From: a virus | Length of the DNA: 32,946 nucleotides | Reading direction: 5' to 3' (one strand) | IMG/VR virus record: IMGVR_UViG_3300041955_000778 | Location: 1-32,946 of that record | Part shown: piece after piece, positions 2,322-32,780 of the stretch | Numbering within the stretch: position 1 is the first letter of the stretch | Layout: every line of letters starts with the position of its first letter | Program-made: the position numbers and the translations under genes | The notes under the pieces: model-generated | Told to the model about the DNA's origin: nothing | Seen by the model: the letters and a program-made list of their open reading frames with translations, nothing else | Database searches by the model: none

Positions 2322-2527
2322 GACTTTCTCTGGGGCTGGCTGAATACGCGCTCCAGAGCGGCGTACAGCTTGCCCGCTTCTGCTGGATCAATCTTTGCCG
2401 CGTGGTCTTCCGGCATACCGGAAGCTGCGAGCCACAATGAATACTGCTGAGGGTTGGTGACACGCCAGTTAGGCGTTGTTAGGCCGCGGAGTAGGACAGC
2501 AAGCGCAAGACGTTTGACGGGGTTCAT
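2318..2527 (-). CDS. 69-residue hypothetical protein
   Basis: The ATG at 2527 overlaps the sigma factor stop (ATGA), and its TGA overlaps the metallophosphoesterase start (GTGA), so it is translationally locked into the operon on both sides. The product has a basic hydrophobic N-terminus (MNPVKRLALAVLL) and a later helical segment (DPAEAGKLYAALERVF). No family is recognised. Its tight coupling to the sigma factor makes a regulatory accessory role possible, but this is inference only. Confidence 0.65.
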   Translation of the reverse strand: MNPVKRLALAVLLRGLTTPNWRVTNPQQYSLWLAASGMPEDHAAKIDPAEAGKLYAALERVFSQPQRKS

Positions 2528-3042
2528 CAGATCACCTCGCGGAGACGATCAAGCGCGGCATCTGTCTTGCGCTTCACGGTAGTTATCGAACAACCCAGCG
2601 CGGCCCCAACAGCAGCGAAAGATTGCTCTTCTAGGAAGTGCTTTGATAACAACTGCCGCTGCTCCGTCGGCAGCTTCTCAAGGGCAGAGATTACGTGCCG
2701 CTGTAGGTCGGCATTGATAACTTGCTGTTCCTGTGACGGGGTAGGGTCAGGGAGGATGTCAGCTTTCGTGACGTTATAGCCTTCTTCGTCAATCAGTGGA
2801 TCGTCGAGAGATAGCAGCCTGTGGCGGAGTTCTTTCCTTGCCCAGTTCCCGAGATACCAGTTGACTTGATGTACGACATAGTTCTCTGGCGGGAGCGCGT
2901 CAAGATTGGGAGCCCATAGCGCCAAACACACACCAGCTTCTGACTTAGCATCATCGGTATCAAGCCGGTAGCGGCTGGCAAAGGAAGCAGCGAGACGGTA
3001 GGCAAGGGGTAGGTATCGGTCTAGCAGAGTGTCAGCGGTCAT
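2527..3042 (-). CDS. Phage RNA polymerase sigma-70-family factor
   Basis: The 171-residue protein from the ATG at 3042 (ribosome site CCCGGAG) has the two-domain layout of a small sigma factor. An N-terminal region-2-like part (about residues 5-75, including DRYLPLAYRLAASFASRY and a tryptophan-rich stretch VNWYLGNWARKEL) is joined by an acidic, proline-containing linker to a region-4 helix-turn-helix (about 120-168, LEKLPTEQRQLL then FAAVGAALGCSITTVKRK). Such factors redirect host RNA polymerase to phage promoters, commonly those of late genes. It sits second in the leftward operon, about 120 bp behind the HNH gene. A copy of the repeated motif CAGTACAAAGTAG lies 76 bp upstream of its start. 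An ORF start at 3072 is less likely. Target promoters are not known. Confidence 0.82.
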   Translation of the reverse strand: MTADTLLDRYLPLAYRLAASFASRYRLDTDDAKSEAGVCLALWAPNLDALPPENYVVHQVNWYLGNWARKELRHRLLSLDDPLIDEEGYNVTKADILPDPTPSQEQQVINADLQRHVISALEKLPTEQRQLLSKHFLEEQSFAAVGAALGCSITTVKRKTDAALDRLREVI

Positions 3043-3117
3043 GTATCTCCGGGAGCGGCGCGAGACTTGCAACGCGGTTGGCCTTCAGGGAGGCGCGGAG
3101 GGTGGGGCTAATAGCAG

Positions 3118-3130
3118 CTACTTTGTACTG
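3118..3130 (-). promoter_or_regulatory. Copy A of the motif CAGTACAAAGTAG
   Basis: Read on the minus strand, this 13-bp sequence lies in the gap between the HNH gene and the sigma factor gene and points toward the latter. The identical 13-mer recurs at 4496-4508 on the plus strand, and 12 of its bases recur at 4404-4415 on the minus strand. Its core TAC-AAA-GTA is an inverted repeat. It could be an operator or part of a phage promoter. Confidence 0.5.
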
Positions 3131-3160
3131 TCGCGAAACAGCGCAACGTGCCGGGAATAT

Positions 3161-3559
3161 TTATGCTGCCGACTTCTGGGACTTACCCGCCTTCGCTGCG
3201 CGCGCTTGGGCGCGCTGCTCGGCGTGCAGCTTGGCGTGAGCGCGCGAAGACAGCAGAAGCATGTGGTTAACATTCAGGCAGCGCTTGTCGGCATGAGCGC
3301 CGCAGTTGAAGTGGTTGTGGTGAATCTCGTACCGATGGCTGCCGTCGACCGGCGGCGTCTCAGGGATTGGGCCGCGCGCGTGTTCGTAGATTGCGCGGTG
3401 GCAGTACACAACGCGGTCGCCGTCGAGAACGGTTGGGTAGTTGCCTTGTGCTGAAGTTCCGCCCTGCCAGATGTCGCAGCCAGTAACGGGGTCGTGAACG
3501 GTGCGGGCTTGAATGCGCTCGATTAGAGTTAGGGACTCGGTGCCTGCTTTACGGGGCAT
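3161..3559 (-). CDS. HNH endonuclease
   Basis: The 132-residue protein contains the phage HNH pattern: CHRAIYEHARGPIP (about 53-66), then EIHHNHFNCG (78-87) with the catalytic histidines, cysteines at C86 and C94 likely to hold zinc, and CLNVNHMLLLSSRAH (94-108). This arrangement matches free-standing HNH nucleases of the HNH_3/homing type, which cut double-stranded DNA. The C-terminal tail is basic and alanine-rich. The ATG at 3559 has a GAAGGAA ribosome site 9 bp upstream. It is the first gene of the leftward operon and borders the large non-coding region, so it may be a selfish homing nuclease whose target is nearby. A second, different HNH lies at 4939-5280. Confidence 0.85.
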   Translation of the reverse strand: MPRKAGTESLTLIERIQARTVHDPVTGCDIWQGGTSAQGNYPTVLDGDRVVYCHRAIYEHARGPIPETPPVDGSHRYEIHHNHFNCGAHADKRCLNVNHMLLLSSRAHAKLHAEQRAQARAAKAGKSQKSAA

Positions 3560-3672
3560 TGATTGATTCCTTCAAGCTGCCGGGGATGGCGGCGAAGAAC
3601 GCGCTCGGAAGGCGCTATGGGTTGGAACTGCTGATCGGCGGGTTAGCGGGGTAGGAGCGGGCCGAAAGTGGA

Positions 3673-3700
3673 TTGCTCCCATCTGCTATCTATATAGAAT
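3673..3700 (+). promoter_or_regulatory. Candidate rightward promoter into the gene-free region
   Basis: TTGCTC (3673-3678) and TAGAAT (3695-3700) are separated by 16 bp and overlap the palindrome TCTATATAGA (3689-3698). This is the best sigma-70-like match in the divergent region. A transcript from here would run rightward through about 950 bp without a gene before reaching 4654. The AT-rich block could also hold a leftward promoter for the HNH operon, but no good match is seen. Confidence 0.4.
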
Positions 3701-4403
3701 ACTAACTCTCGTGCTGGATGCCGATTTCGGGGCCGGAAACAGTACGAATTCGGCGGGGGTTGTTCCCTGGCGGGAATTTCGAGACCCCCTACGTTCGCGC
3801 TCACCGTCTTTCACTCGGTCACTCGGTCAACGATGACTCCGCCGCACTGAGGCGCGCTGGGGGTGCTACCCGCGAGCTTTCTATGCGTCAATCTGTCAGT
3901 GCATCGTCGGGGGAGCATCTGGCAGGTACACTTGAGGCTATCCCTCGTCAAGAGTGCTATATAGCTCCCTTGCTCGTGTTCGTTCCCTGCTTTGTCGTCC
4001 CTCTGGTCTGTTTACTGCCCCTTGTGCCCACGCATCGCTGGTGAGCTTTCAGCGTCCCGTAGTGTCGTCACCCTGAGTTTTGAGCGACCCGCGCCGCCTT
4101 GACATTCGACCTGGACGTAAGCCTCATGGCGGATCAAGTACCGTCCCGGAGCCAGGAAACCCGCTAGTTATGTGCGGGACTCAGTTTCACTACGCCTCGA
4201 CAGCCCTCGTTTGCTGCTTTGCCGTCTACGCACTCTCTCGCGTAAGAGATAGGGGTTTGTACTGCTGTGCAGCCCTTTGTTATGGACGGGGTACTGCGAT
4301 CCGCCGTTGCGCGGCGCGCGTCAAGCGCAGAGCGCAACATTGACCAGAGGATTACGCGGTTGTGTTCCTGCGGTCGCCCGTGGGGTTCTACCGTCAAGAG
4401 TCT

Positions 4404-4508
4404 CTACTTTGTACTACCGCCGAGAGTGGGGCCTTTACCGCCTTTATTTGCATCCCCTGCCAAAGAAACATGGCACAGGTGGTACCCCTCCATAACAGTA
4501 CAAAGTAG
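4404..4508. repeat. 12-bp perfect inverted repeat flanking about 80 bp
   Basis: CTACTTTGTACT (4404-4415) and its exact reverse complement AGTACAAAGTAG (4497-4508) face each other, so in RNA they could pair as a 12-bp stem closing a large loop. The loop contains the TGCCA/TGGCA inverted repeat. A further partial copy CAGTACAAA is at 4256-4264 on the minus strand and a near copy at 3740-3748. Shared with copy A at 3118-3130, the set looks like a family of binding sites. Confidence 0.6.
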
Positions 4509-4526
4509 GAGGGAAAATAACCTCCC
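4486..4526 (+). promoter_or_regulatory. Mutually exclusive hairpins around GGAGGG
   Basis: GGAGGG (4508-4513) can pair with CCCTCC upstream (4486-4491, 6 bp, 16-base loop) or through GGAGG with CCTCC downstream (4521-4525, 5 bp, loop GAAAATAA). The two pairings exclude each other and the upstream one buries the motif CAGTACAAAGTAG in the loop. This is the geometry of an attenuator-like switch ahead of the rightward operon, but no uridine tract follows. Confidence 0.35.
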
Positions 4527-4653
4527 GCCGAGAGTCGCGGCGCTGGCCCCGCCCAATAGAAGGACAACGATCCTCAATCAGCCAGCAATCTGTCACCGCC
4601 CCAGCGTGCTAACCCGCATGAAGTAGTGACTCCCGGCCCCACCTTTCGAGACC

Positions 4654-4935
4654 ATGACTGCCGCTGACATTTACACCGCTGCGAAGCAATATCTCGCTTG
4701 CCACCCCTGGGTCGCGGGTTTGCTCACGTGCGCCGAAGCTGCCGCCGCTGGCACCGTAATCAATGTGATTATCTCTGGCGGATTCGATTCCAGCCCCGCT
4801 GGACTCAAGCGCTTGGCTGCCGTCGTCCTGGCCAGCGTCGTTGTAGCGGTCCGCAATTATTTGAAGCAGAGCCCGCTTCCAGCCCAACCGCTCGCCAAGG
4901 TTATTCCATTCCCACCGCCCGCCGCCAAGGAATAA
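4654..4935 (+). CDS. Small membrane protein, holin-like topology
   Basis: The 93-residue product has two hydrophobic segments (about residues 17-40, rich in alanine, and 51-68, LKRLAAVVLASVVVAV) separated by a short polar glycine-containing turn, and a proline-rich tail ending PFPPPAAKE. Two membrane helices with a short charged tail are compatible with a holin, but the gene lies before the terminase block rather than beside a lysin, so this is weak. It is the first gene of the rightward operon and is followed 3 bp later by the HNH gene. The ribosome site is poor (TTTCGAGACC). Family is not recognised with certainty. Confidence 0.65.
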   Translation: MTAADIYTAAKQYLACHPWVAGLLTCAEAAAAGTVINVIISGGFDSSPAGLKRLAAVVLASVVVAVRNYLKQSPLPAQPLAKVIPFPPPAAKE

Positions 4936-4938
4936 CTC

Positions 4939-5280
4939 ATGCCGATGCGCGCCAAACGCACGTGTATGTTTCCCGGCTGCGCTGCCTTATCTGACGGCCC
5001 ACGTTGCGCGCAGCACCCCAACGAACCGTGGGAGTCAAGCGACCGAGCAACAGCCGCAGAACGGGGCTATGGCCATGCGTGGCGAGTTCTCCGCGCCCGG
5101 ATATTGAAGCGCGATAAATATTTGTGCCAGCCCTGCCTTAAGGCGGGGCGAGTGACTCCAGCATCCGCAGTGGATCACATCATTCCCAAGGCTAAGGGCG
5201 GAACAGATGCCGACGAGAACCTGCAAAGCATCTGCCGTCCTTGCCATGACTGGAAGACCAGCGCATTAGATTCCAAGTAG
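4939..5280 (+). CDS. HNH endonuclease of the packaging type
   Basis: The 113-residue protein has an N-terminal small zinc-ribbon-like part (C9, C14, C23, H26) and the classical phage HNH core. C63 and C66 begin it (YLCQPCLKAG), VDHIIP holds D79 and H80, N94 lies in DENLQSICRPCH, and C99, C102 and H103 complete the zinc knuckle. This form is encoded next to terminase in many HK97-like phages, where it assists DNA packaging by helping terminase cut at cos. Its position before the terminase genes, with only the methyltransferase between, fits. Translation starts at the ATG 3 bp after the previous stop. Confidence 0.92.
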   Translation: MPMRAKRTCMFPGCAALSDGPRCAQHPNEPWESSDRATAAERGYGHAWRVLRARILKRDKYLCQPCLKAGRVTPASAVDHIIPKAKGGTDADENLQSICRPCHDWKTSALDSK

Positions 5281-5336: not shown

Positions 5337-6785
5337 GTGTCCGACGCAATTCCGCGAAATGAAGTCTGGGGGTATCCCGCTCAATTGAAGTTATCCGACT
5401 TGAAACCGGACTCACGGAACGCTAACCGAGGCACTCAGCGCGGTCGCCAAGCGGTCGCCAAGTCTCTTGAGCAGTTCGGTGCCGGTCGATCCGTCCTGAT
5501 CGACCGTGATAACCGCGTTGTTGCCGGAAACAAGACGCTGGTGGCAGCGGCGGCAGCCGGTATCCGTGACGTGGTCGTCGTTGAGACGAGCGGGCGTGAA
5601 ATTGTAGCCGTAAAGCGCACGGATTTATCTCTGGACTCGCCGGAGGGACGCGGCCTAGCGATTGCTGACAACCGCACCGCTGAGCTTGGGCTGGAGTGGG
5701 ACCCGGAAATATTGAGCGAGCTTGCCGCCGAGCTTGACCTGCAACCGTACTTTACGGACGAAGAGCTGCAAGACATCACCGGTGGGCTCGGCGACGGCAC
5801 GGAGCAAGAGTCCTCTGCCGTCTACGCCGACGAAAAGATTATCGCCGCAGCGTTTGATTATTTCCGCGCCAGCGGGTTCCCCTACCGCAAGCTGCCACTC
5901 CACTTGTCGATGCAAGAGATTAACCAGCTTGCCACGACTGACCCGGACGCGCTAATCAATACCGACGTTGCATATCACGTCGCTGACACGTATCACCCGC
6001 ACCGCTTTCACGCCTCGGCTAACGGGATGAAGTCGCCGTTCGCTGCCTTCGCCGAAGACAAGTTGCTGCGCCGCGCGCTCTCGTTGGAGCTTACGAAAGG
6101 CAACAGCAAGATACCAGCCGGGTACTTCTCGTCACTGAGCATCGTCAGCGGCACCCAAGCGTGTTCTAACTTCCGCCCCGGCTTTGCTTGTTATCTGTAC
6201 AGGACCTACTGCAAGCCGGGTGATACCGTCCTGGATAGCTCCACTGGCTACGGTGGTCGTTTGGTTGGGTTTTTAGCTTCCGGCATCGCTGGTAAATACA
6301 TCGGCATTGACCCTAACACACTCACCCACGCCGGTAACGTTCGGTTAGCCACAGAGCTGGGCTTTGCCGATGTCGTAGAGTTGCACAACCTACCCGCAGA
6401 AGATGTCCCACACGATGTAGTAGCGGGGCGCTGCGACTTTAGCTTTACTTCGCCGCCCTACTTCTGCAAGGAACTCTATTCAGCGGAGCCTACGCAATCG
6501 TGCAATCGCTACTCTACCGGCGAAGCATGGCGAGACGGCTTCCTGCTCCCGATGCTGCGTCTACAGTTTGCCGCGCTGAAGCCAGGTAAGACAGCCATCG
6601 TCAATATCGCCGACGTGACGATAAACAACCGCACCTATCCGCTCGCTAATTGGACCCGCGAGTGTGCCCAGACTGTAGGTTTCCGCCACGTGCGTACTGA
6701 CGAGTTCCCGATGAATCGACGAGTCGGCAGAGGTATGCCTGACGAAGTAGTAACAGAACCAATGATCGTGCTTCAGAAACCATAA
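5337..6785 (+). CDS. ParB-domain DNA methyltransferase (SPPY type)
   Basis: This 482-residue protein starts at a GTG. Residues about 15-130 form a ParB/Srx-like domain (NRVVAGNKTLVAAAAAGI near 58-75 and LAIADNRTAELGLEW near 105-120). After a middle region, the C-terminal half carries S-adenosylmethionine motif I (VLDSSTGYGGRLVGFLASG, about 298-316) and the catalytic motif TSPPYF (SPPY at 372-375). SPPY is typical of N4-cytosine methyltransferases, but adenine methylation cannot be excluded. Phage enzymes of this kind can protect phage DNA from host restriction or mark sites for packaging. It lies between the HNH and the small terminase, overlapping the latter by 1 bp (TAATG). The ribosome site is weak. 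Confidence 0.88.
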   Translation: MSDAIPRNEVWGYPAQLKLSDLKPDSRNANRGTQRGRQAVAKSLEQFGAGRSVLIDRDNRVVAGNKTLVAAAAAGIRDVVVVETSGREIVAVKRTDLSLDSPEGRGLAIADNRTAELGLEWDPEILSELAAELDLQPYFTDEELQDITGGLGDGTEQESSAVYADEKIIAAAFDYFRASGFPYRKLPLHLSMQEINQLATTDPDALINTDVAYHVADTYHPHRFHASANGMKSPFAAFAEDKLLRRALSLELTKGNSKIPAGYFSSLSIVSGTQACSNFRPGFACYLYRTYCKPGDTVLDSSTGYGGRLVGFLASGIAGKYIGIDPNTLTHAGNVRLATELGFADVVELHNLPAEDVPHDVVAGRCDFSFTSPPYFCKELYSAEPTQSCNRYSTGEAWRDGFLLPMLRLQFAALKPGKTAIVNIADVTINNRTYPLANWTRECAQTVGFRHVRTDEFPMNRRVGRGMPDEVVTEPMIVLQKP

Positions 6786-7288
6786 TGGCCGGACGCAGAC
6801 CCAAACCGACCGCACTGAAGCAGCTTGCTGGAAACCCCGGCAAGCGTGCGGTAAATCACTGTGAGCCGCAGCCGTCCGGTATTCCCGATTGCCCCGAGCA
6901 CTTGGACGCAGAAGCCAAAACGGAATGGCAGCGCATCTCTGCTGAGCTTCTTACGCTTGGCCTGCTCACTTCGGTCGACCGCGCGGCACTCGCCGCATAT
7001 TGCGCGTCGTGGTCGCGCTGGATTGCCGCTGAGAAAAATATCGCCAAGTTCGGCGCGGTGATCAAAGCTCCATCCGGTTACCCGATCCAGAGCCCGTTTG
7101 TTTCCATTAGCAACAGCGCGTTGGACCTGTTGCGTAAGTTTCTGATTGAGTTTGGATTGAGCCCCGCCAGCCGCAGTCGCTTGTCCATTAACCCCACACC
7201 ACCCGCTGACTCGTTCGAGGCGTTCATGGCTGGAATCGGCGCTGACGATATCACCGAGCCGGAAGAGACACAGACCGAGCCGCTATAG
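6785..7288 (+). CDS. Terminase small subunit, P27 family
   Basis: The 167-residue product has the diagnostic start of the P27/Terminase_4 family (AGRRPKPTALKQLAGNPGKR, residues 2-21), a PEHLDAEAKTEWQRI block (about 37-51) and the helix-rich central part with LTSVDRAALAAYC. The end of the domain, FGLSPASRSRLSI, is also typical. The subunit recognises the packaging site and loads the large subunit. It is coupled to the methyltransferase upstream and the large subunit downstream by 1-bp overlaps. Confidence 0.95.
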   Translation: MAGRRPKPTALKQLAGNPGKRAVNHCEPQPSGIPDCPEHLDAEAKTEWQRISAELLTLGLLTSVDRAALAAYCASWSRWIAAEKNIAKFGAVIKAPSGYPIQSPFVSISNSALDLLRKFLIEFGLSPASRSRLSINPTPPADSFEAFMAGIGADDITEPEETQTEPL

Positions 7289-8946
7289 TGCATCCCGCCG
7301 AGCAGTACATTGAAAATGTTGTTTCCGGCAAAGTAGTAGTCGGCGAGCTGGTACGCCTCGCGTGCCAGCGGCACATGGACGACTTGCAAACAGCCCATCT
7401 ACGCGGCTTCCGTTTCGACCGCAGCAGAGCGCAGCGCGTCATTGATTTCTTTAGCTTCCTGCGTCACTCCAAAGGCGAGTGGGCGAACCGGCAATTCACG
7501 CTGGAGCCGTGGCAAGCAGCGTTGACCTGGATTCTGTTTGGCTGGGTTCACTCTGACACCGGCTTCCGTCGCTTCCGCACAGCATTAGTTGAGCTGGGCC
7601 GCAAAAATGGTAAGTCTACGTGGGCCGCCGGAATCGCTTTGTATCTCACGATTGCTGACGGTGAGCCGGGAGCGGAGGTCTACTCCGTTGCTGTAAAAAA
7701 AGAGCAGGCACGGCTGACGCACGGTGAAGCTACGCGGATGGTGGCGAAGTCACCGAGCATCGGCAAAGTTCTCAAGCGCGGGCGCGACAATCTTCACTGT
7801 CTACAAACGAACAGTAAGTTTGAGCCGTTGGCTAGCGAAGAAGATAGCCTCGACGGTCTCAACCCACACGGCGTCCTTGCAGATGAAGTTCACGCTTGGA
7901 AGAACCGCATGTTGTGGGACGTGCTCTACACCGCAACGGGTGCCCGCCGTCAACCTCTACTGCTGGCAATCAGCACCGCTGGATTCGACAGAAACAGCGT
8001 GTTCTTTCAACAGCACGATTATTCCATCAAGGTACTCAAGGCGATTATCGCGGACGATTCCTGGTTCGTGTGGATTGCGTCTCTTGATGACGAGGATAAC
8101 TGGGAGCTTGAAAGTACCTGGGTCAAAGCAAATCCCAACCTCGGCGTGACAATCAAGCTGGAAGAACTGAGGGCTGCCGCAGCGAAAGCGAAGGCGAGCC
8201 CCGCCGAGTTAAATAGCTTCCTTCGTCTGCGTCTCAACAAGTGGACATCCTCACACACCGCATGGATGCCGATGGATCGCTGGGACGCCTGCAACACACC
8301 GGTTGATCCAGAGGCGCTCAAGGGTCGTCCATGTTTCGGCGGGTTGGACCTTTCCACAACGACCGATGTCTCAGCTCTCGTGCTTTTGTTTCCGCCAACT
8401 GCTGCTGGTGAAAAGTGGACGGTACTTCCGTACTTCTTTCTGCCGGAAGACAACATTGAAGCGCGCGTCAAGCGCGATAGAGTCCCTTACGATGTCTGGG
8501 CGCGTCAAGAACTATTCACGCTGACAAGCGGAAGCGTAATTTGCTATGACACGCTCCGCGCCCGCATTAACGAACTGGGTAAGCTCTACGACGTCCGCGA
8601 GATTGTTTTCGACAGATGGAACGCGCAACAGATCGTGACGCAGCTCGCGGGTGATGGCTTCGAAATGGTAGAGCTGGGGCAAGGCTTCGCTTCTCTCTCT
8701 GCTCCTACTAAGCGACTGCTTGAACTGGTTCTATCCGGTGATCTTGCCCACGGTGGTCATGCGGTACTTCGATGGATGGCAAGCAACGTCATGGTTGCTA
8801 CCGACCCCGCCGGAAATATCAAGCCCGACAAGTCGAAATGCAGGGAAAAGATTGACGGCATCGCAGCTCTTATCGACGCGCTGGCGCGCGCAATCACCGT
8901 CCCGCTGAAACCCAAAAGTAAGTTCTTCAAGCCATTCTACGTGTAA
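7288..8946 (+). CDS. Terminase large subunit
   Basis: The 552-residue protein has an ATPase domain with Walker A GRKNGKST (104-111) and Walker B GVLADEVH (195-202, acidic pair 199-200), and a C-terminal RNase H-like nuclease with candidate metal-binding aspartates D354 (GGLDLSTTTD), D442 (VFDRWN) and D523 (KIDGIAAL). These belong to the HK97-like Terminase_1 family, which translocates DNA into the prohead and cuts it at the ends. It starts at a GTG overlapping the stop of the small subunit (TAGTG). Length and motif spacing are normal. Confidence 0.97.
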   Translation: MHPAEQYIENVVSGKVVVGELVRLACQRHMDDLQTAHLRGFRFDRSRAQRVIDFFSFLRHSKGEWANRQFTLEPWQAALTWILFGWVHSDTGFRRFRTALVELGRKNGKSTWAAGIALYLTIADGEPGAEVYSVAVKKEQARLTHGEATRMVAKSPSIGKVLKRGRDNLHCLQTNSKFEPLASEEDSLDGLNPHGVLADEVHAWKNRMLWDVLYTATGARRQPLLLAISTAGFDRNSVFFQQHDYSIKVLKAIIADDSWFVWIASLDDEDNWELESTWVKANPNLGVTIKLEELRAAAAKAKASPAELNSFLRLRLNKWTSSHTAWMPMDRWDACNTPVDPEALKGRPCFGGLDLSTTTDVSALVLLFPPTAAGEKWTVLPYFFLPEDNIEARVKRDRVPYDVWARQELFTLTSGSVICYDTLRARINELGKLYDVREIVFDRWNAQQIVTQLAGDGFEMVELGQGFASLSAPTKRLLELVLSGDLAHGGHAVLRWMASNVMVATDPAGNIKPDKSKCREKIDGIAALIDALARAITVPLKPKSKFFKPFYV

Positions 8947-29618: not shown

Positions 29619-29646
29619 GGGCTCCGGTTTGCGCCGGAGCCCTTTT
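29619..29646 (+). terminator. Strong terminator at the end of the late operon
   Basis: Perfect 9-bp stem GGGCTCCGG (29619-29627) / CCGGAGCCC (29634-29642) with a 6-base loop, then TTTT (29643-29646) and GTGTT. It lies 26 bp after the stop of the coiled-coil gene and isolates the late transcript from the accessory cassette downstream. Confidence 0.92.
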
Positions 29647-29897
29647 GTGTTCCTGCCACGCCCCGTGGTTAGACTTGACCCGCAGCCGCAGCCCTCTGTT
29701 CGGCAACGATCTCGATTTACGCGGCAAAGCCCGAAATGGGACCGTATTGGATGCAGATTCAGCTTTGGCTTTGCAAACCCGCTCACCCGCAGTACAATCC
29801 GGACGATTCGAGCTTCCTGTTAAAAATGATACGGGGGGCTTTGGTCTCCTTCGGGCTCTGTGGGACGCCCTTACCCAGGGTAGTGGGAGGAGCTTAC
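29647..29897 (+). promoter_or_regulatory. Spacer with candidate promoter for the accessory cassette
   Basis: TTGCAA (29771-29776) and TACAAT (29793-29798) with a 16-bp spacer form a good sigma-70 promoter in front of the membrane protein gene. The CAGTACAAT context at 29790-29798 resembles the phage motif CAGTACAAA. Immediately before the gene is GGGAGGAGC, a strong ribosome site. No gene is seen in the 29647-29897 stretch; the ORFs crossing it use other frames and lack support. Confidence 0.55.
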
Positions 29898-31513: not shown

Positions 31514-31832
31514 CGTTTTTGCATCTTTGCAACGTCAGATGTGCTCCGCACGCGCAGACATCGCAGTGCTCAAGTCGCAATGCCATAATCTTTGTCGTGT
31601 GTCCTGACGATAAAAATCTGCCCGATTGGTCGGCCCCATGTTCCGAGTTCCTGATTATGTCAAGCAGGAAGCTGCTGGGCTCGCGTGCGGAACGCGCGCG
31701 CGGCTACCACAATCACATCTTGCTGCGCGTGCGGGCGCAGAAAGGGTTGTGGATAAGCTGGAAGCGGCTACAAATATATGTGTGCAACAAAGAAGGCTCC
31801 GGACGTAACCGGATCAAGCACATATTGAGGTG
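31514..31832. other. 319-bp gene-free stretch with a DnaA-box match
   Basis: No credible gene is seen; an ORF across 31510-31851 has an unlikely composition, and a 55-codon frame from the ATG at 31638 has no ribosome site. TGTGGATAA (31748-31756) is a perfect match to the DnaA box (minus strand TTATCCACA), followed by an AT-rich stretch around 31769-31785. An interrupted inverted repeat TGACGTT...AACGTCA lies at 31510-31536 just after the Sel1 stop and may end its transcript. A single box is weak evidence for an origin. Confidence 0.4.
31748..31756 (-). promoter_or_regulatory. Perfect DnaA-box match
   Basis: Minus-strand TTATCCACA, next to AT-rich DNA. A 9-mer occurs by chance about once per four windows of this size on both strands, and no second box is found, so this is only suggestive of an origin. 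Confidence 0.3.
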
Positions 31833-32780
31833 TCAGAGGGGGTCGTCCTGATCCGAACTTTTGGTGGTGGTTTTGCCCAACGGCGTCCTGCTGAAGACAG
31901 CTACTGTCGAGTGAATTAGCGCTCCGTCGTCATCACGATCCGTCTCGGAGCCGACATGCAAACAGATCATACCGTGTTCGGAGATGAGATGGTTGCAGGA
32001 TTCTTCAAAGTCGTCCAGCCCAATCGCCACCTCCTCACAGAATGGGCATAGCTTCCTAACGGCAGTGCTGACGTAAACCATCGTCGGTAAATCGGGCTCG
32101 TCGTCTTCCGTGTAACCATATCCGTCGTTGTCGGGTTCGCGCTGGGGATACAGTTCCGGGTGGTCATTCTCATACTCTTGTCGGCGCGCCCAGCATTCTG
32201 GCAGGCTGAGGCTGTTGGGTAGTTCTTGGTCCTTGGGCGTGCATTCGTACAGATGAAGGAATCCCTTTGTTGGGGGAGAGCCATCGCGTCGTTGGATCAG
32301 GATTGCCAGGAAATCCTCTTTCGTAGTTATCTGTTCCCGACATGCGCGGCAGTGACGGGCATGTTTGTCAGGAGTGCAATGAATACCAACCCGGCGTGCT
32401 TCCGGTACATACTTAGCCGGAATCAAGTAGGGGTCTAGGACCTCTCCGTATTCAGTCACTATGGAGCGCATCTCGGCGTTAGGAACAACGACGAGATTGG
32501 CGGGAACGTACTTCGATGGCATCGGAGCCAGATTGGAAGTTCGACAATCTAGCTTGTTTCCATTGAGCCGAATTAACTTCGGCACCGCTTTGAGTTCGAG
32601 GCCGTGGCGCTTTGCGTACACGGCTCGATGGAGGGCCACTCCCGTCTCAAGCATCACAGTCTCGGTTTGGACAAACGAAGACTTGCCCTCCAAAATGCCG
32701 AGCATGTCGGCATCGAGGGTGACTTCTCGGCGGGTGCCGTGGTCGTCTATCGTGTAAGTGAATGCCTCAGGGTCAGGCAT
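31833..32780 (-). CDS. Protein with degenerate HNH-like segment and zinc-binding motifs
   Basis: From the ATG at 32780 (AAGG 8 bp upstream) the protein has 315 residues. Residues about 50-86 (LHRAVYAKRHG, then RLNGNKLDCRTSNLAPM) look like the HNH_3-type homing endonuclease core, but the first catalytic histidine (normally in VDHINGN) appears replaced by arginine in LIRLNGN, so it may be inactive or only bind DNA. A second cysteine/histidine cluster lies near 135-147 (IHCTPDKHARHCRAC), and a C2H2-like finger near 245-269 (CPFC ... HLISEH). Between is an acidic, proline-containing stretch. A TTG at 32834 would add 18 residues and overlap the upstream gene. Function is probably DNA binding. Confidence 0.7.
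   Translation of the reverse strand: MPDPEAFTYTIDDHGTRREVTLDADMLGILEGKSSFVQTETVMLETGVALHRAVYAKRHGLELKAVPKLIRLNGNKLDCRTSNLAPMPSKYVPANLVVVPNAEMRSIVTEYGEVLDPYLIPAKYVPEARRVGIHCTPDKHARHCRACREQITTKEDFLAILIQRRDGSPPTKGFLHLYECTPKDQELPNSLSLPECWARRQEYENDHPELYPQREPDNDGYGYTEDDEPDLPTMVYVSTAVRKLCPFCEEVAIGLDDFEESCNHLISEHGMICLHVGSETDRDDDGALIHSTVAVFSRTPLGKTTTKSSDQDDPL

Follow-up and report, generated by a model that had tools for sequence, protein, structure and literature searches.

The put antitermination RNAs of phage HK022 and the EAR element are structured leader RNAs that could act on RNA polymerase, and RNAs of the put type bring about processive antitermination with RNA alone. GOLLD and ROOL are ornate structured RNAs of phages and prophages whose function is unknown; GOLLD is often longer than 800 nt, the solved ROOL measures 659 nt, and both often occur near tRNA islands (PMC12286853). 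The RNA that we describe here is likewise an ornate structured RNA of phages and prophages, but GOLLD and ROOL are larger (above about 600 nt) and often lie by tRNA islands, whereas this one has about 300 nt and appears to stand at operon heads. Its likeness to put and EAR is one of position: it is structured, would occupy a leader position and could conceivably target RNA polymerase, although put sites are far shorter than 300 nt. A third comparison is with HEARO, the IscB omega RNA of Rfam. The RNA does lie 5' of an HNH gene in our phage and in two other members of its family (L196 and L227), but it matches no Rfam model, most members precede other genes, and the HNH proteins concerned are small phage HNH proteins rather than full IscB.

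The window, which is the entire virus record of 32,946 bp, belongs to a siphophage. Its rightward genes begin at 4654 (HNH, ParB/methyltransferase, P27-type TerS, TerL, portal, protease, capsid), and its leftward genes run from 3559 (HNH, sigma-70-family factor, phosphoesterase). The gap between the two operons and the genes that matter here are:

2527 to 3072, minus strand: sigma-70-family factor, with a possible ATG at 3042 (TIGR02937, E 3e-16, above cut-off)
3161 to 3559, minus strand: HNH endonuclease gene, the first gene past the RNA in the RNA direction (phrog_1872, E 2.6e-15)
3560 to 4653, no strand: gap without genes between the leftward and rightward operons (coding scores, periodicity, Pfam)
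4654 to 4935, plus strand: first open reading frame of the rightward operon, no family above cut-off
4939 to 5280, plus strand: HNH endonuclease gene (phrog_144, E 2.2e-35)
6785 to 8946, plus strand: genes for the small (P27 family) and large terminase subunits (family matches)

Several other features of the record deserve mention. A ParB-like domain is fused to a DNA-methyltransferase-like domain at 5337-6785, between HNH and TerS. An HTH_17/excisionase-like gene on the minus strand (390-635) suggests a temperate phage whose integrase would lie beyond the left end of the record. Intrinsic terminators are evident by eye after the late operon (29620-29655, a clear case) and at the left end (344-376), and of all local RNA folds in the window the strongest is intergenic, at 31651-31850 on the plus strand (z -5.6). 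Our guess at the host is Acidobacteriota, from a cultured terminase relative (Bryocella) at 50% identity.

The preliminary description had called the gap gene-free, and this was confirmed. Open reading frames inside 3560-4653 have negative coding scores and no credible Pfam match, and a protein-coding or decayed gene was rejected on these grounds; three-base periodicity is absent too, in a test that misses some genuine short genes of the window. Comparison at the DNA level found no homologs covering the gap in INPHARED phages or PLSDB plasmids and no similarity to it around the terminases of related phages, and searching with the proteins of the flanking genes brought up no useful relatives. 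The free-energy z-scores of the gap are ordinary, not lower than those of the remaining genome, so single-sequence folding gave no hint of an RNA. The minus strand of the gap shares the A-richness of the leftward genes, and its fold is slightly more stable than those of shuffled copies (z -2.0). The repeats and hairpins reported for the gap do exist, but its CTATATAG palindromes (at 3690 and 3957; some 8-bp palindrome recurs in 6.1% of shuffles) and its 11-bp direct repeat (at 4417 and 4525; present in 12.9% of shuffles) are not clearly beyond chance. A rightward promoter proposed at 3673-3700 did not hold up, as no sigma-70-like site was found there, and a search over the whole gap recognised none.

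A comparative search led to the RNA. Using BLASTN against 396 genomes of the Bryocella phylum (Acidobacteriota), we found one locus, L130, that matches the gap over 81 nt at 75% identity (E 3e-7), and several of the differences between the two sequences sit at matching stem positions. A covariance model built from this pair found four further homologs (E 1e-7 to 9e-10) in prophage-like surroundings, all near an integrase and one also near a terminase and an excisionase-like gene, as named from the translations. We wrote the six-sequence consensus as a pattern with stem partners left free and ran it on IMG/VR viral contigs, where it matches 73. Two candidates were discarded on the way: a first exact-word pattern gave 6 matches inside coding DNA that reflect chance, and a match in L131 is probably chance as well. 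The carriers are otherwise unrelated phages with several different terminase types and G+C contents from 0.33 to 0.69; five other virus records searched over their full length hold one copy each. Several genomes of Acidobacteriota type also carry the kernel of the RNA, for the most part in prophage-like context. Searches of INPHARED phages, PLSDB plasmids and the 75 loci around related terminases did not find the family. For two other phyla, 209 and 199 genomes were searched with no match and with no positive control in those phyla.

The elements of the RNA in the window are:

4035 to 4325, minus strand: approximate extent of the structured RNA, with inferred boundaries (5' end near 4325, 3' end near 4035; comparison)
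4058 to 4194, minus strand: closing helix P0, 4058-4064 with 4188-4194 plus 4073-4078 with 4179-4184, assigned with moderate confidence (comparison and sequence)
4102 to 4165, minus strand: conserved 65-nt kernel, CCNGGCAACGGGYnGGUAnUYGAUCCnRCAA..CUACGUCCN'GGUCN (covariance model, leave-one-out profile)
4110 to 4156, minus strand: stem P1, CCTGG at 4110-4114 with CCAGG at 4152-4156 (comparison of members)
4128 to 4145, minus strand: hairpin P2, 4128-4132 with 4141-4145, whose loop bears two tertiary pairs (covariation, mutual information)
4160 to 4178, minus strand: hairpin P3, CCCGC/GCGGG, 4160-4164 with 4174-4178 (comparison of members)
4267 to 4311, minus strand: second domain, D2, with a stem 4269-4273/4293-4297 (likeness to member L235, covariation)

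The kernel of the window scores 57.2 bits with covariance model R2, whose training set includes the window itself. A sequence-only profile built from the 63 other kernels still finds it at 4104-4159 on the minus strand (E 5.6e-9). Read on that strand, P1 of the window pairs fully and P2 pairs with one non-standard pair. Across the first six sequences, all stem cells are paired (100%) and covariation is 0.640, compared to 0.134 in shuffled alignments; across 64 kernels, 97.1% of cells are paired and covariation is 0.484, compared to 0.132 ± 0.012 when shuffled and at most 0.091 with slid partners. In all 64 members the middle pair of P1 is G-C, A-U or U-A. Because the search pattern fixed some columns, invariance at those positions carries no meaning, but the covarying columns had been left free. 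These compensatory changes, the test that the preliminary description had called for, support a structured RNA, one of the options raised there.

Mutual information calculated with no structure assumed ranks the stem pairs first, followed by two non-nested pairs that we read as tertiary contacts. One joins an A or G of the P2 loop to a U or C of the ACGUCC segment (Watson-Crick in 63 of 64 kernels, GU in the remaining one), and the other joins the next loop base to the base after GGUC (48 Watson-Crick and 6 GU among the 64). Outside the kernel, the CCCGC/GCGGG hairpin that had been noted from the single sequence turns out to be part of the RNA, as P3; in the first pair of sequences it was compensatory under one alignment only, and we left it out of the support. 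D2 sits 5' of the kernel in the RNA direction. It covaries as well, with 98.9% of cells paired, but its members were partly selected by a 4-bp complementarity filter, so its independent support is the stem that MAFFT and RNAalifold place in this region without the filter, together with the likeness of the window's D2 to L235 (E 4e-5). A leave-one-out D2 profile also has its top match at 4269-4303, in the expected place and strand (E 0.013). A further hairpin is possible at 4302-4316. Subtypes can be told apart among the members (L167, L173, L184, L190, L193 and L206) by their second domain and by the helix that follows the kernel. Taken together, these comparisons show computationally that the gap carries a structured RNA of a multi-phage family, with a covarying kernel, two tertiary pairs and a second domain. 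An ornate large RNA had been suggested for the whole gap; a structured phage RNA is indeed present, but it spans about 300 nt and not 1.1 kb, in agreement with the 260-400 nt of total intergenic space in compact member phages.

We next consider which strand is used. Wobble pairs lean toward the minus-strand reading (GU 13, AC 4; p 0.049, marginal). A home-made gene caller supplied the neighbor genes. In 44 of 53 members, the gene on the 3' side of the element runs in the same direction as it (44 vs 9, p 1e-6), whereas the gene on the 5' side shows no orientation bias (31 vs 24), and an intrinsic terminator lies between the element and the following gene in 0 of 44 cases. The G-U bias and the orientation of the neighbors point to the minus strand, and the contrast between the 3' and 5' genes, with no terminator intervening, means that the element behaves like part of an operon leader. 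The RNA is thus probably read from the minus strand, at the start of the leftward HNH/sigma-factor/phosphoesterase operon. Against a leader of this operon stands the distance to its first gene in the window, about 540 nt from the kernel. G-U pairs are also rare, with 13 in about 855 cells, which is unusual for RNA, and this keeps alive a different reading in which the stems act in DNA, as a single-stranded fold or cruciform at a replication origin, packaging or recombination site. Stems that are almost purely Watson-Crick would suit such an element, as would the terminase, helicase or integrase genes near some members. However, the lean of the existing wobble pairs to one strand, the strong bias in orientation toward the following gene, and the RNA-like tertiary pairs and multi-domain layout all speak against it, and we regard a DNA-level element as improbable.

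The gap also holds sequences that look like operators, the only features assigned in its parts outside the RNA (3560-4035 and 4325-4653). Three exact copies of a 12-mer occur in the region:

3118 to 3129, minus strand: AGTACAAAGTAG, pointing left, upstream of the sigma gene and 76 nt before the ATG at 3042
4404 to 4415, minus strand: AGTACAAAGTAG, pointing left, about 80 nt before the estimated RNA 5' end; putative operator or promoter element
4497 to 4508, plus strand: AGTACAAAGTAG, pointing right to the late operon

The second and third copies make up the 12-bp perfect inverted repeat of the preliminary description, which is present as reported and goes beyond chance (one lies within 300 nt in 1.3% of shuffles). 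The first lies outside the gap and makes the case stronger: when 3000-4653 is shuffled 1000 times, a single shuffle contains any 12-mer three times. All three copies are confined to non-coding DNA, and each faces a transcription unit in a promoter-like orientation: the sigma gene (3118), the RNA and HNH operon (4404) and the late operon (4497). No -10 or -35 elements were recognisable at a constant spacing from them, and the exact inverted-repeat pattern had 0 matches in viral contigs. The three copies are probably operator or activator sites, and a candidate role is as binding sites for the phage sigma factor or a repressor. The sigma-70-family factor at 2527-3072 (minus strand) is phage-encoded and ECF-sized, with one of the 12-mers just upstream of its start.

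Operator-like 12-mers are thus there, as had been suggested for the gap, but so is a structured RNA, and the two probably coexist. An ordinary divergent promoter/operator plus cos region with no RNA would account for the divergent operons and for three identical 12-mers oriented as promoter elements. From the HNH-TerS-TerL gene order, a cos site in the vicinity of the gap is plausible, which also fits that reading. The reading without an RNA leaves unexplained a covarying kernel common to 73 other contigs, and we give it hardly any credence.

We compared the element with all 4227 families of Rfam 15, and no model matched it in the window, in the first homologs or at the loci of 20 further members; the matches listed were elsewhere or far below cut-off. 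At L213:1992-2278, about 1 kb from that member's copy of the RNA, the permuted tmRNA and beta tmRNA models give a tmRNA-like match. The earlier idea of a relative in the GOLLD/ROOL size class found no match at gathering score in the window or the 20 members' loci, and within 3500-4700 these models return nothing at E up to 5. The kernel's sequence words were absent in this context from open full text, a scope outside which lie closed literature and preprints, where a prior description is possible. By these searches the family is new to Rfam 15. It is the RNA family that we call "new"; the way in which it works may turn out to be a known one.

What might the RNA do? The genes downstream of it vary (HNH, methyltransferase, Erf, terminase, ParB, integrase, unknown), and this diversity does not fit a riboswitch for one pathway. 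Because the RNA stays constant while downstream genes and phage lineages change, it would be expected to act on a universal partner. We propose that transcription begins left of the 12-mer at 4404-4415 and proceeds leftward, and that the structured RNA forms in the leader of the HNH/sigma-factor operon. By analogy of position, our first choice is that this leader acts in cis on transcription in an antitermination-like manner, and perhaps thereby controls its own operon. The target would be something common to all hosts, with RNA polymerase favored, as in RNA-only processive antitermination of the put type. Our main reading, to which we assign a probability of roughly 0.6, is that the gap encodes an RNA of about 300 nt from a widespread non-Rfam phage family, which serves as a leader of the leftward operon and likely acts on a host-common target, RNA polymerase being the favorite.

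The same RNA might instead be free-standing and trans-acting in the manner of GOLLD and ROOL, processed from the operon transcript or sharing it. The single copy per record, the diverse neighbors (terminase, helicase, integrase and methyltransferase among them), the elaborate tertiary contacts and the very different G+C of the carriers would all fit such a role, and a trans-acting RNA on a shared operon promoter would show the same positional pattern. On the other hand, co-direction holds strongly for the following gene only, and no terminator stands behind the element. We consider a trans-acting RNA less likely than the leader, though it is the main rival and a more serious contender than the DNA-level element. 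For the leader RNA that we prefer, a bolder version can be offered tentatively, at somewhat less than even odds: a new class of phage leader RNA, found across unrelated packaging types and G+C contents, that would reprogram the host transcription machinery or another universal component without a protein.

Widespread new structured RNAs with covariation at tertiary pairs are rare. Folding of one sequence did not reveal this one, and it is found neither in Rfam nor among the isolated phages of INPHARED nor, by sequence words, in open full text. It adds a likely regulatory RNA to phage biology, spread over phages with several terminase types. As a small, operon-linked case, it makes the role of large structured phage RNAs testable, and it supplies targets for RNA-seq and mutagenesis.
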